Positions 996 through 5,662 of a stretch of DNA of 57,636 nt are shown here, piece by piece; the stretch's first letter is position 1, and the number at the start of each line of letters is the position of its first letter. The DNA lies in assembly GCA_003151975.1 (NCBI GenBank), contig PLZD01000030.1, positions 207 through 57,842 of the forward strand, written 5' to 3'. The notes under the pieces are model-generated. The model searched no databases, was not told the origin of the DNA, and saw nothing but the letters and a program-made list of their open reading frames with translations. Position numbers and translations under genes: made by a program. This stretch comes from Elusimicrobiota bacterium. GTDB taxonomy: Bacteria > Elusimicrobiota > Elusimicrobia > UBA1565 > UBA9628.

Positions 996-1164
996 GACTG
1001 TCTCCTATTAACAGTGTGCGTCCCTAAATATGCGGATTGAGGCTCCGTCCATTTTACATTTTTTGAAAGGGCAAGGGGGATTTAGACCTTTACCGATAGT
1101 TTAACCTGCCGAAATAACTTTCCCTGCCCCCGGAGCTATGCTTTTAGGGCAGGATGGAGGCTGT
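996..1164. promoter_or_regulatory. Divergent intergenic region between clpC and a secreted-protein gene
   Basis: This is a 169-base AT-richer spacer between divergent genes. On the plus strand a TATGCT -10-like box lies at 1137-1142, about 22 bases before the ATG at 1165, which has its own GGAGG Shine-Dalgarno. On the minus strand a TAAAAT box near 1060 could serve clpC. I see no recognisable CIRCE or CtsR operator. The promoter calls are tentative. Confidence 0.35.
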
Positions 1165-1776
1165 ATGTCAAAGAAGCTCTGCCTGGTCTTGAGCGCCCTC
1201 TCCCTGATCCCCTCGCAAGTGTTCGGTTACGGCGGTTATTATGGAAACGGCAGCCGCGCGACCTCCTCCACGCGCTCGCGGTCCAGCCACAGCTCGATCT
1301 CGCAGGCAAGACCGCTTTCCGGCTCCCACGGCTCACGCGGCTTCTCGGGCGGCGGCGGCCGCGGCGGGGGCTTCAGCTCTTTTGGCTCGGCCAGCACTCC
1401 CCAAGCCACGGGCACGATCACGACGGCCGAAGGGGCGCTCGTGCGCAGCCCCGAGATGTTCACGCTCAAACAACCCAGCGGCCAGCCCCAGCAGTGGTTC
1501 TCGGGCACGCCGTTCTCGGGCATCGCCATGGAAGACAGCCACGCCCAGGCCTTGGGCGGCGCCGGCGTTTTCATGGGGAAGCCAGACCTGGCGCCGGGCG
1601 CCAATCCCAACCAGGGCCCGAGCAGCGCCGCAGGCTCCGGCGGGTACGGAACCTTCTTCTCGAACACGAGCGGCAGCGGCGCCAACACCGGCAATCAGAC
1701 CGCGAGCAACACGAACCTGGGCGTCAACGCGCAGAACACCGGCAATCAGAACGCTCCCAGCTTGTCGGGCAACTGA
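1165..1776 (+). CDS. Secreted Gly/Ser-rich, Asn-rich protein of unknown function
   Basis: A 203-residue protein with a clear Sec signal peptide (residues 1-21, cleavage near QVFG-YGG). ATG at 1165 is chosen because GGAGG sits just upstream; an in-frame start at 1138 lacks one. The mature part begins with Tyr/Gly and Ser/Arg-rich sequence, then a Gly-rich tract near residues 55-70. The last 40 residues are rich in Asn, Gly, Ser and Thr and contain two NTGNQ repeats. No enzyme motif is visible. The composition suggests an extracellular or surface structural protein. Function is unknown and I recognise no family. Confidence 0.75.
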   Translation: MSKKLCLVLSALSLIPSQVFGYGGYYGNGSRATSSTRSRSSHSSISQARPLSGSHGSRGFSGGGGRGGGFSSFGSASTPQATGTITTAEGALVRSPEMFTLKQPSGQPQQWFSGTPFSGIAMEDSHAQALGGAGVFMGKPDLAPGANPNQGPSSAAGSGGYGTFFSNTSGSGANTGNQTASNTNLGVNAQNTGNQNAPSLSGN

Positions 1777-1818: not shown

Positions 1819-4269
1819 GTGAGCCACGCCGAGACGCACGCGCCCGCCGCCGCCGGGGCGCATGACCTGAAGGGAAAATCCCTCCTGCTGATCAGTTCGC
1901 CCGCGCCCGAGAAGCGCTTCATCTTCCAGCGCCTAAAATCCCTCGGGCCGCGGTTGACTTTACTTTCCTCCGAGAGCTCGTGGGCCGCGCGCTACGCCGA
2001 CGCTTTCCTTGAAGTCCCCACTTTCGACACCGCGGAAGCGCTCGCCAAGGTCGAGGAGTACGTCAAGGAAAACAAGATCGACGGCGCGCTGACTTTCTGG
2101 GAAAATGCGGTGCCGCTGTGCGCGACGCTTTGCGAGCGCTTCGGCTGGCCTGGCCACTCGGTGCAGTCGGCGCTCAACGCGCGCAACAAGATTTTGACGC
2201 GCAAGGTGCTCGAAGCCGCGCGTTTGTTCAAGTACTCTCCCGAGTGGGCGCAGCTGCGCTCGGTGCAGGATCTCGAGCGCGAAGCCAAGCGCATCGGATT
2301 TCCGCTGGTGCTCAAACCCGCCTGGGGCGTCAAGAGCCAGTTCGTCGTGCGGCTCGACAATCTCACCGAGGCCAAAAACGCTTTCGAGTACATCAAGGCC
2401 AACATGACCCCGTCGTTCGACTCGATCTACGCGTCGGGCACCGAAGTTCTGGCCGAAGGGTATCTTGACGGCGCCGAGATCGACGTCGACATGCTCGTGC
2501 AGAACGGAGACATCAAGTTTCACAGCTTTTGCGACAATTTCCCGACCAAAGAGCCGTTCTTCGTCGAGACCGGCGACGCGATGCCCTCGCGCCACGAGGA
2601 TTCGGACTTGGACGCCGTGTTCAAGATGTCCAAGGAAATCGTCAAGGCGCTGGGCCTTTCCAACGGCGCTTTGCATCTCGAGGCCAAGATCGGCGCCTCG
2701 GGCCCGAAGCTCGTCGAGCTCAACGCGCGCATGGGCGGCGACTACCTGCACGATTGGATCGAGACCGCCTGGGGCGTAGATTTTATCGCCGAGGCGGCAA
2801 AAATCGCCGCCGGCATTCCTTGCGAGCCGAAAAAACCCAAGGAAGCCAAGGTGCATCTCGTCAGCAAGTACCTCATCGCGCCCCACTCCGGCGTGATCGC
2901 GGGACTCTCGGTGCCCGCTAAGCTCGAAAAAGACAAGGTCCACGACATCACTTTACAGAAAGAGCCCGGCGACGCGGCGCTCGTTCCGCCCGAGGGTTTC
3001 GAGTCGATCGGCTGGGTCGTGGGCCAGGGCAACACTTACGCCGAGGCCGAAGAGAACCTCGACCAGGCGCTGACCGGCATCACGATGCAGATCGCGCGGT
3101 TTGATTCCACCTCTTCGGTCGGCAAAACGCGGCGCAAAAACAAGTTCGGCGCGGCTCAGGTCGCCCGACGGCGCATCATGCAGTCCGCCCGCATCGAGAA
3201 AGTCCGCGGCCTCGATCCCAAGGCGGCAAAAAGCCTGCACGTCGGCATCTTGTGCAATATTTTCAGCGACGCCGCCGGCGAAGAAACCGTCGTCCACGCC
3301 GACCTGACCTCGGTCGGCCTCAACATCCAGAAAGCCGTCGAGTCTAAGGGCCACCGCGTGACCTTCTTCGACATGAACGAAACGCCGCTTCCCTTTAATA
3401 AGATCGCCGAGAGCAATGTCGACGTCATTTTCAACGTCTGCGAGCGCATCAATAACTCGTCCTTGCTCGAGCCTCACGCCGCCGCCATACTCGACTGCCT
3501 CGGCACGCCTTACACGGGCAGTAATCCGCTGACGCTGGCGCTGTGCATCGACAAAGTCAAAGTGAAGAAGCTGCTCGAGCACGCGGGCCTGCCTACGCCG
3601 CGCTTCGACTACGTGTTCTCGAAAGACGAGCCGATCCGCGAGGACCTGCGCTACCCGCTGATGGTCAAGCTCGCCAACACCGACAACTCGATCGGCATCA
3701 GCAACGATTCGGTCGTCACTTCGCTCAAGCAGCTCAAAGACCAGGTCGCGATGCTTTTGGAAAAATATAACCGGCCGGTCTTGATCGAGGAATACATCGA
3801 GGGCGACGAGGTCGATGTCTCAATCATGGGCAACGAGGAACGCGTGAAGGTTTTGCCGCTCTCGCGCTCGGTCTTCGACGAGCTTCCCAAGGGAACCTGG
3901 GGCATCTATCCGTTCCAGGCAAAATGGGACAACAACTCGGTCTACGAGAAGATCCGCGTCGAGCGGCCGGCGAAGTACTCGCAGAAGTTAAGCGCGCTGA
4001 TCTCGGAGATTTGCCTGGACGCCTACAACATCCTCGACTGCCACGACTACGCGCGGGTTGAGGTGCGCGTCGACAAGCACGGCAATCCGTTCATTCTTGA
4101 AGTCAATCCGAACCCGTCCATCAACATGGGCGACTGCGTGCCCAACTGCGCGGAGATGACGGGCTTGAAGTACGAGGATTTCATCGAGGAGATCCTCCGG
4201 GAAGCCATTTCCCGTTACCGCGCGCGGCCGCCGTACTACCACCTGCAGAGCGCGCTGGCCGCCCTTTAG
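1819..4269 (+). CDS. Two-domain ATP-grasp ligase (peptide-ligase-like half fused to D-Ala-D-Ala-ligase-like half)
   Basis: An 816-residue fusion of two complete ATP-grasp ligases. Residues about 20-430 resemble the carboxylate-amine/peptide ligases (BacD or carnosine-synthase type): a pre-ATP-grasp Rossmann half, FPLVLKPAWG in the nucleotide-binding lobe, and the metal-binding KLVELNARMGGD. A basic linker of about 40 residues follows. Residues about 474-816 resemble Ddl: VDVIFNVCER, an IPYTGS-like loop (TPYTGSNPL), YPLMVKLAN, and the Mg-binding ILEVNPNPSIN. Family knowledge predicts acyl-phosphate formation and attack by an amine, so two amide bonds could be made by one protein. Substrates cannot be read from the sequence. 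GTG is taken as start because it lies directly behind a promoter; it has no Shine-Dalgarno. The flanking genes encode exported proteins. Confidence 0.85.
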   Translation: MSHAETHAPAAAGAHDLKGKSLLLISSPAPEKRFIFQRLKSLGPRLTLLSSESSWAARYADAFLEVPTFDTAEALAKVEEYVKENKIDGALTFWENAVPLCATLCERFGWPGHSVQSALNARNKILTRKVLEAARLFKYSPEWAQLRSVQDLEREAKRIGFPLVLKPAWGVKSQFVVRLDNLTEAKNAFEYIKANMTPSFDSIYASGTEVLAEGYLDGAEIDVDMLVQNGDIKFHSFCDNFPTKEPFFVETGDAMPSRHEDSDLDAVFKMSKEIVKALGLSNGALHLEAKIGASGPKLVELNARMGGDYLHDWIETAWGVDFIAEAAKIAAGIPCEPKKPKEAKVHLVSKYLIAPHSGVIAGLSVPAKLEKDKVHDITLQKEPGDAALVPPEGFESIGWVVGQGNTYAEAEENLDQALTGITMQIARFDSTSSVGKTRRKNKFGAAQVARRRIMQSARIEKVRGLDPKAAKSLHVGILCNIFSDAAGEETVVHADLTSVGLNIQKAVESKGHRVTFFDMNETPLPFNKIAESNVDVIFNVCERINNSSLLEPHAAAILDCLGTPYTGSNPLTLALCIDKVKVKKLLEHAGLPTPRFDYVFSKDEPIREDLRYPLMVKLANTDNSIGISNDSVVTSLKQLKDQVAMLLEKYNRPVLIEEYIEGDEVDVSIMGNEERVKVLPLSRSVFDELPKGTWGIYPFQAKWDNNSVYEKIRVERPAKYSQKLSALISEICLDAYNILDCHDYARVEVRVDKHGNPFILEVNPNPSINMGDCVPNCAEMTGLKYEDFIEEILREAISRYRARPPYYHLQSALAAL

Positions 4270-4354: not shown

Positions 4355-5185
4355 GTGAAGATTGTCTTCGCGCTTCTTCTTTGCGCCTCGGCGCACGCCG
4401 CCAGCATTCCCGATTTGGAGCTGCTGCGCGGCATCGCGGCCGACCAGGGCGTCGTGCTCGCCGATATTCCAGCGGCCCCCAAAGTGAAAGCCGTCCCCGT
4501 CGAAAAAACTTTCGAGGGCATCATCTCCGTCGTCAAGAAATCCCCCGCGTGGCGCCGCCCGCATGAAGCTCTCAAAGACCGCGCCGTCGTCCCCGATGGC
4601 GAGAAGAAAACCGCCTGGATCAAGGCCACCTCTCTCGGCCGCTCGCTGACCGTCGGCTCTCAAGCCTGGATCAAAGGCAACTTCTCCGATCCCGCGCAAG
4701 ACAAATTCCAACTCAACAGCCGCATGCTCGACGTCATCGACGCGACCGTCTTCCCGAAAAATCTGGGCGTAAAATCAGACAGCAACGATCTCTCGGCCGA
4801 AATGGCGACGGTCTCGCCCTGGTGCGACCACATGCCGATGATCGGATCCAACGAGCGCCGCCAATACCTCGTCATCGAAACCAAGCTCACCAACAAATCC
4901 GACAAGCCCCTCATCATCACGCTCAAGAAAACCTTCTTGTCCTTCGATCCGAAATCCCCGGGCGCTCCCGTCGAAGGACTCACGCTACGCGCGGCCAACG
5001 GTCGTCCCAGCGGCCTGGCCGCGCAGACTTTAGACGCAGGTTCTACCATCAAGCTCCAGTTCCGCGGCGACGGCCTCTACCCCGAAGGCCGCCACGGCCA
5101 GAAGCTCTACGCCACGCTCGAGCTCGAAGCCGGCGGGCAAACTCTTTTCATCCGCGGCTCGGGCGAAGTCCTCGCCACGCAATAA
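4355..5185 (+). CDS. Secreted protein of unknown function
   Basis: A 276-residue protein with a short Sec signal peptide (residues 1-15, ending ASAHA-A). The GTG start is supported by the signal peptide beginning there and by the -10 box six bases upstream. The mature protein is soluble-looking, with mixed beta-prone segments in the C-terminal half such as RQYLVIETKLTNKSDKP, which resembles an extracellular beta-sandwich strand pattern. No catalytic motif or family is recognised. It precedes a second small exported protein by 39 bases and may be co-expressed with it. It is probably periplasmic. Confidence 0.75.
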   Translation: MKIVFALLLCASAHAASIPDLELLRGIAADQGVVLADIPAAPKVKAVPVEKTFEGIISVVKKSPAWRRPHEALKDRAVVPDGEKKTAWIKATSLGRSLTVGSQAWIKGNFSDPAQDKFQLNSRMLDVIDATVFPKNLGVKSDSNDLSAEMATVSPWCDHMPMIGSNERRQYLVIETKLTNKSDKPLIITLKKTFLSFDPKSPGAPVEGLTLRAANGRPSGLAAQTLDAGSTIKLQFRGDGLYPEGRHGQKLYATLELEAGGQTLFIRGSGEVLATQ

Positions 5186-5206
5186 TCCCCACAAATGTGC
5201 TAGTTT

Positions 5207-5224
5207 AGGGCCATTGGAGGCCCT
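5207..5224 (+). promoter_or_regulatory. Inverted repeat around the ribosome-binding site of the PepSY-like gene
   Basis: AGGGCC (5207-5212) and GGCCCT (5219-5224) are perfect complements around the loop ATTGGA and abut the ATG at 5225. The Shine-Dalgarno GGAGG (5216-5220) falls in the loop and 3' arm, so the hairpin could mask it. A TG-C-TAGTTT extended -10 at 5198-5206 would start RNA near 5213, in which case the full hairpin would not be in that transcript. Confidence 0.35.
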
Positions 5225-5662
5225 ATGAAAATTTTGATGCTGTTGTTGTGCGCGTCACTGGCGCACTCCGCCGAAACGAAGGTCAAGCTCGCCGATCTGC
5301 CGCCCGCGGTCCAGAAAACGATCAAGGAAAAAACCCAAGGCGCCAAGCTCAAGCACATCGTCAAGGACACCTCCAAGGACGCCCCGACTTACGAGGCCGA
5401 GATGTTCGTCGCCGGCAAAGAAAAGACCGTGACCGTCGACGCGACCGGCGGCGTCGTCGAGATCGAGGAGACCGTGGCGCTCGCGTCTCTGCCTGCGCGC
5501 GCGCAGGGCGCCATCATGAAGGCCGCCGAGGGCGGCAAGGTGCTTAAAGTCGAGTCGGTCAGCCACGGCGGCGCCGTGGAGATTTACGAGGCGCTCATCA
5601 AAAAGGCCGGCAAGAAGAAAGAATTCGCCGTCGATCCCGACGGCAAGCCCGTCGCCGACTAA
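5225..5662 (+). CDS. Secreted PepSY-like domain protein
   Basis: A 145-residue protein with a signal peptide (residues 1-16, ending LAHSA-E). The mature part is two copies of a PepSY-like fold: residues about 21-80 (LADLPPAVQKTIKE, then a beta strand containing TYEAEMFVAGKEKTV and the turn DATGGVVEIEE) and about 84-145 (LASLPARAQGAIMK, then VEIYEALIKKAGKKKEF and DPDGKPV). Proteins of this type are small periplasmic modules thought to bind peptides or inhibit proteases. ATG has GGAGG four bases upstream. It is followed six bases later by a tiny membrane-protein gene. Confidence 0.8.
   Translation: MKILMLLLCASLAHSAETKVKLADLPPAVQKTIKEKTQGAKLKHIVKDTSKDAPTYEAEMFVAGKEKTVTVDATGGVVEIEETVALASLPARAQGAIMKAAEGGKVLKVESVSHGGAVEIYEALIKKAGKKKEFAVDPDGKPVAD

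Follow-up and report, generated by a model that had tools for sequence, protein, structure and literature searches.

The fusion gene, its product and its surroundings

Within the window (the whole 57,636-nucleotide stretch of DNA analysed), a gene with a GTG start at 1819..4269 on the + strand encodes a protein of 816 residues, whose full length is kept in relatives. The earlier note had read two complete ATP-grasp ligases in this one protein, and the open reading frame, the Pfam domains and both folds in a structural model agree with that reading. The N half (residues 17-427; 1867..3099, +) is an ATP-grasp ligase of the L-amino acid ligase (LAL) type, with Pfam matches to ATPgrasp_N (40-112), ATP-grasp_4 (159-308, 8e-24) and LAL_C2 (351-425), all above cut-off, and its closest solved relative by sequence is L-amino acid ligase BL00235 (chain 3vot, 1e-28). 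The C half (residues 471-804; 3229..4230, +) is a Ddl-fold ATP-grasp ligase, matched by Dala_Dala_lig_C (586-793, 4e-36), with Ddl enzymes as the closest solved relatives (2e-23). A Pfam match of the protein to CPSase_L_D2 is only weak. No GCS domain was found with Pfam at the N-terminus, where the fusion carries an ATP-grasp LAL, unlike the bifunctional glutathione synthase GshF with its N-terminal glutamate-cysteine ligase domain.

The fusion was modelled with AlphaFold2 from an alignment of 26 family sequences (the mean pLDDT is 73; confidence is low at 241-257, in the 683-720 loop and in the linker). Residues 14-427 of the model align to BL00235 (3vot) with Z 35.6, and residues 472-804 to Ddl 3r23 with Z 29.6. 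As the structural alignment runs over both full halves, each half is complete, with its own N-terminal substrate-side lobe plus an ATP-grasp core; modelling of both halves, as had been proposed, thus returned two complete folds. Between them lies a linker (residues 428-470; 3100..3228, +) that belongs to neither the LAL nor the Ddl family. It is basic, is strongly conserved in the family alignment (DSTSS-GKTRR--RF-AA--ARRRI-QSAR-E--RG), and forms a helix at 445-464 in the model.

The gene sits between clpC and a block of nfeD - signal peptidase - lepA - ptsI, which is nearby in many relatives. The neighbours were listed as the earlier note had suggested: the conserved flanks (ClpC, NfeD, signal peptidase, LepA and PTS enzyme I) have housekeeping roles with no relation to the fusion, whereas its closest neighbours differ from relative to relative, and an assignment of function from gene neighbours was therefore rejected. 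No biosynthetic cluster was recognised around the fusion. The earlier note had also offered the joining of a dipeptide to a carrier, and no carrier-protein gene adjoining the fusion was recognised in the window. The flanking genes at 1138-1776 (+) and 4355-5662 (+) encode small secreted-looking proteins with no Pfam match, which are not kept beside the fusion in relatives. A -10-like box is present ~6-12 bp before the start codon in several relatives; scanning the window for promoter consensus sequences gave no match, so the box is taken as a hint.

Active sites of the two halves

In the L-amino acid ligase BacD, E311 and E324 are Mg ligands, R328 is the catalytic Arg and W332 is a pocket residue. 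The first three are matched in the fusion N half by E288, E300 and R304, which are invariant. In the alignment K124, K166, H286, E288, E300, N302 and R304 are all conserved in the fusions and are common to the Elusimicrobiota LAL paralogs. The ELNAR motif (residues 300-304; 2716..2730, +) aligns to BacD E324/R328; its E300 and N302, which like R304 are also found in the LAL paralogs, are presumably Mg ligands, and R304 is presumably catalytic. The loop at 247-264 (FFVETGDAMPSRHEDSDL; 2557..2610, +), by contrast with these shared residues, is strongly conserved in the fusions but for the most part not shared by the phylum's LAL paralogs, and is proposed as the acceptor-site loop of the N half. 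D308 (2740..2742, +), at the position of BacD W332, is invariant in the fusions, while 11 paralogs vary at this site and none of them has Asp. Fusion N halves are distinguished from the LAL paralogs by D308, V348, Y351 and W399 and by most of loop 247-264. No invariant cysteine was found in the N half across the family.

The C half was aligned with E. coli DdlB from MG1655, and its catalytic residues are kept (K579, K617, E657, E664, R746, E748, E761 and N763). DdlB K97, K144, E180, E187, R255, E270 and N272 are thus all retained on a Ddl fold, and one metal ligand, D257, is conservatively replaced by Glu (E748), a point that weighs against the two-step reading given below. The EVNPN motif (residues 761-765; 4099..4113, +) holds the Mg ligands E761 and N763, aligned to DdlB E270/N272. 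The alignments therefore uphold the view of two intact, different ATP-grasp ligases: each half keeps its key ATP and Mg ligands and has lost none of them, the equivalent of D257 being Glu. As these residues are invariant, both sites are predicted to be probably active.

The residues for substrate are different. In Ddl, E15, S150, Y216 and S281 bind and orient the two D-alanines. The C half has none of the four: they are replaced by V492, N623, W703 and D772, which are invariant across 22 fusions except for one V-to-I change. N620-G626 (NTDNSIG; 3676..3696, +) replaces the Ddl REGSSVG loop in the alignment, with S150 becoming N623, and D772 (4132..4134, +), invariant in the fusions, takes the place of S281, which in DdlB belongs to the second D-Ala site. 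DdlB L62, H63 and G64 are likewise replaced by C541, E542 and R543, again invariant in the fusions. The C half also scores under the NCBIfam cut-offs for D-Ala-D-Ala ligase (175 bits against 243, and 146 against 246). By its pocket residues, then, the C half is something other than a D-Ala-D-Ala ligase; with ATP/Mg residues kept and Ddl substrate residues replaced, it is expected to work as a ligase on another substrate. An intact Ddl with all four substrate residues is encoded separately in the genome, on another contig and not beside mur genes, and the candidate role of the C half as the housekeeping Ddl was rejected on these two grounds. The earlier note had reached the same conclusion from the absence of mur genes; the intact Ddl and the lost substrate residues are better grounds, since the genome's own Ddl is also away from mur. 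A third PF07478 match in the genome (463 aa), which sits on a very long branch in the tree and has a sequence resembling biotin carboxylase, was set aside as no close relative of the C half. Six cysteines of the C half (479, 541, 560, 576, 741 and 773) are kept in all or almost all family members, and some are near the expected substrate pocket.

Distribution, descent and related ligase arrangements

A search for homologues with the same domain order found the fusion, at 59-79% identity, in ~31 of 341 Elusimicrobiota genomes, from seven families of one class; a related LAL without the fusion is found in 11 further genomes of the 341. Relatives of the window's genome have the protein at full length with 63-77% identity. 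A genome scan with patterns specific to the fusion family returned 29 fusion loci, in MAGs named only Elusimicrobia/Elusimicrobiota or 'bacterium', so that no other named phylum was among them; the 29 include CP096137.1. The full-length fusion is present in about 20 independent MAGs and in the latter, a single-contig 3.8-Mb chromosome, which excludes a chance or assembly join; an assembly or frameshift artefact was accordingly rejected, and the sequencing error that had been raised as a concern is not seen. In the Elusimicrobiota set, split copies occur only at contig ends or in one frame-broken row, and architecture and linker are otherwise constant. The fusion is thus real and conserved, and is put together from known enzyme families. 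The literature searched, which consisted mostly of papers accessible without subscription, gave no account of a LAL-Ddl fusion.

In loci holding both genes, mean pairwise identity is 81% for the C half and 66% for the N half, compared with 73% for LepA; where the two halves are set against each other, the means are 79% and 63%. Fusion identity closely tracks that of this housekeeping protein (r=0.93-0.95), indicating vertical inheritance under strong constraint. In the C-half tree, 12 of 12 fusions tested form one clade with full support (100/100). This clade adjoins rhizobial Ddl-like ligases and an Elusimicrobiota Ddl-Ddl protein, apart from true Ddls (support 100/99), with an exact sister group that is unsure because some tree branches are long.

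A related ARRANGEMENTS is found on plasmids of Sinorhizobium terangae and S. meliloti, where a Ddl-like gene comes after a LAL gene on the same strand, matching the order of the halves in the fusion. The Ddl-like product is 34-35% identical to the fusion C half over ~250 residues and groups with it in the tree, outside true Ddls; the rhizobial LALs are ~23-26% identical to the N half. Judged by these identities, the Sinorhizobium neighbours are a two-gene form of the same domain order, with LALs that are only distantly alike. By analogy, such adjacent genes are the classic two-gene counterpart of a fusion, and would count in favour of a joint pathway.

LAL and Ddl-family genes lie side by side in three rhizobial plasmid loci (L090:6352-20612, L089:10001-12388 and L091:8423-15720). 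An ectB-like aminotransferase is near the pair in two of the three, and in S. meliloti an aspartate-semialdehyde dehydrogenase and another LAL are present as well, a gene content that looks like an unstudied diaminobutyrate peptide pathway. In R. leguminosarum, the LAL neighbour is an ordinary Ddl. No ectB-like gene was seen near the fusion, and for both these reasons a diaminobutyrate link was not carried over from rhizobia.

Several other ligase arrangements were seen. An Elusimicrobiota protein of ~680 aa has two Ddl-like ligase modules in tandem (L079:5242-7287 (+), L086 and L080), and a Peptidase_S58 gene adjoins it in L079; as a further chain with two ligase modules in the phylum, it counts in favour of the two-step reading. 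Very large ORFs, of ~1600-1700 aa and more, are present at L081:5794-10848 (-), L073:1447-6405 (+), L076:5679-10439 (-) and L078 (a 5940-aa ORF); that of L081 belongs to the window's own genome. Their order is a membrane-transporter-like region, a conserved Pfam-less region with ATP-grasp-like motifs, and a LAL domain. In such Elusimicrobiota proteins, the LAL follows a conserved region with VVKPSG and EINDHDSGG, often behind the membrane-transporter-like region. The VVKPSG/EINDHDSGG region has no confident match to solved structures, and so is labelled ATP-grasp only putatively; the region ahead is a candidate transporter from reading of its residues. Finally, proteins at L082:4729-8589 (+), L084:4582-6372 (+), L048:4862-8413 (+) and L047:560-2941 (+) have a secretion-signal-like N-terminus and then a Pro/Ala-rich stretch, followed by what look like cytosolic enzymes (LAL ligases, HAD-like regions) or by transporter-like regions. 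It is puzzling that a ligase needing ATP should come after a secretion signal.

Possible function and comparison with known systems

The fusion is best read as a bifunctional cytosolic ATP-dependent amide ligase, in which two working, chemically different sites, both making acyl phosphates, would form two amide bonds in sequence (probability about 0.6). A tripeptide or modified peptide made in two steps, as in the earlier note, is the most likely form of this. The LAL half would turn the carboxylate of an amino acid into an acyl phosphate and couple this to an amine acceptor. A second coupling by the Ddl-like half would follow, in which the first product is lengthened or linked to a third unit, so that a single polypeptide would carry out both steps towards a small peptide-like metabolite. 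We infer that both halves belong to one pathway because the fusion is constant, and infer likewise the order of steps and the nature of the product; with no informative neighbours, the case for cooperation of the halves comes from the fusion itself. As a guess from their charge, the invariant acidic residues D308 and D772, at acceptor positions, may hint at positively charged acceptors.

The halves could instead be two independent ligases with different reactions, joined so as to be expressed together or to form a complex. As this would allow, there is no gene cluster that places them in one pathway, and the N half has changed faster than the C half; however, the constant architecture and linker of the Elusimicrobiota set, where split copies are confined to contig ends or one frame-broken row, and the recurrence of LAL and Ddl-like adjacency in rhizobia make it unlikely. 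A CPSase-like or regulated enzyme, with one site for the chemistry and the other for intermediate phosphorylation or regulation, is less likely again: the CPSase large subunit is also a two-ATP-grasp match in the fold search, but the fusion halves come from different ATP-grasp families rather than a duplication, each has its own substrate-side lobe, and there is no Pfam match to a CPSase oligomerisation or MGS domain. Some ATP-grasp families modify peptides or proteins (PMC4431377, PMC8939145). A RimK- or graspetide-like ligase acting on the end or side chain of a peptide, for which the basic conserved linker might bind a macromolecule, has a rather low probability, given that the closest families are small-molecule ligases, that the RimK family score is far under its cut-off (63 against 143 bits), and that no precursor-peptide gene was recognised among the conserved neighbours (genes of at least 70 aa).

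Two specific products can also be weighed. A search restricted to the GCS2 family found no glutamate-cysteine ligase of that family in the genome, leaving room for a glutathione-like thiol tripeptide synthase in place of GshA/GshB; neither pocket, however, has a known Cys-specific feature, and this reading is very improbable. MysC and MysD of the mycosporine type are also ATP-grasp ligases of one pathway (PMC7826186; PMC11983340). Their combined activity is hardly to be expected here: as a candidate for the DDG synthase (MysA) of that pathway, the genome offers just one gene of the DHQ-synthase family, on another contig, and this is presumably AroB.

For the sequential amide ligase, long retention in many uncultured Elusimicrobiota suggests that a two-step route to some small peptide-like molecule has been conserved. 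A ligase of specialised metabolism would not usually be more conserved than LepA, which points to a core small molecule in a poorly known, mostly uncultured phylum. Tentatively, the fusion may be dedicated to a peptide-like metabolite that is undescribed and housekeeping in level, confined to one Elusimicrobiota class, with two different ATP-grasp sites in one chain and possibly transfer of an intermediate along the basic linker. With both steps on one protein, a single gene and its enzyme would be convenient to test, and the fusion gives a clue to a possible joint role of the neighbouring LAL and Ddl-like genes in rhizobia.

Compared with known LALs (BL00235/3vot, BacD-YwfE, RizA), the N half has the same fold, LAL_C2 domain and catalytic residues, but differs in its putative acceptor loop (247-264), in D308 at the site of BacD W332, and in the second ligase attached to it. 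The C half shares the fold and the ATP/Mg residues of Ddl, but has V(I)/N/W/D for E15, S150, Y216 and S281, and the true Ddl is separate in the genome. The Ddl-like ligases that group with the C half (the rhizobial plasmid gene and the Elusimicrobiota Ddl-Ddl tandem) are separate genes or paired Ddl-like modules, whereas the fusion joins a LAL and a Ddl-like ligase in one chain. In phosphonoalamide biosynthesis, the separate ATP-grasp ligases PnaC, which makes a dipeptide, and PnaB, which adds phosphonoalanine, build a tripeptide (PMC11867202). These are likewise two ATP-grasp ligases, and their successive action to a tripeptide is what is proposed for the fusion; PnaC and PnaB are however separate proteins from a gene cluster in Streptomyces, and both are described as L-amino acid ligases (PMC11867202).
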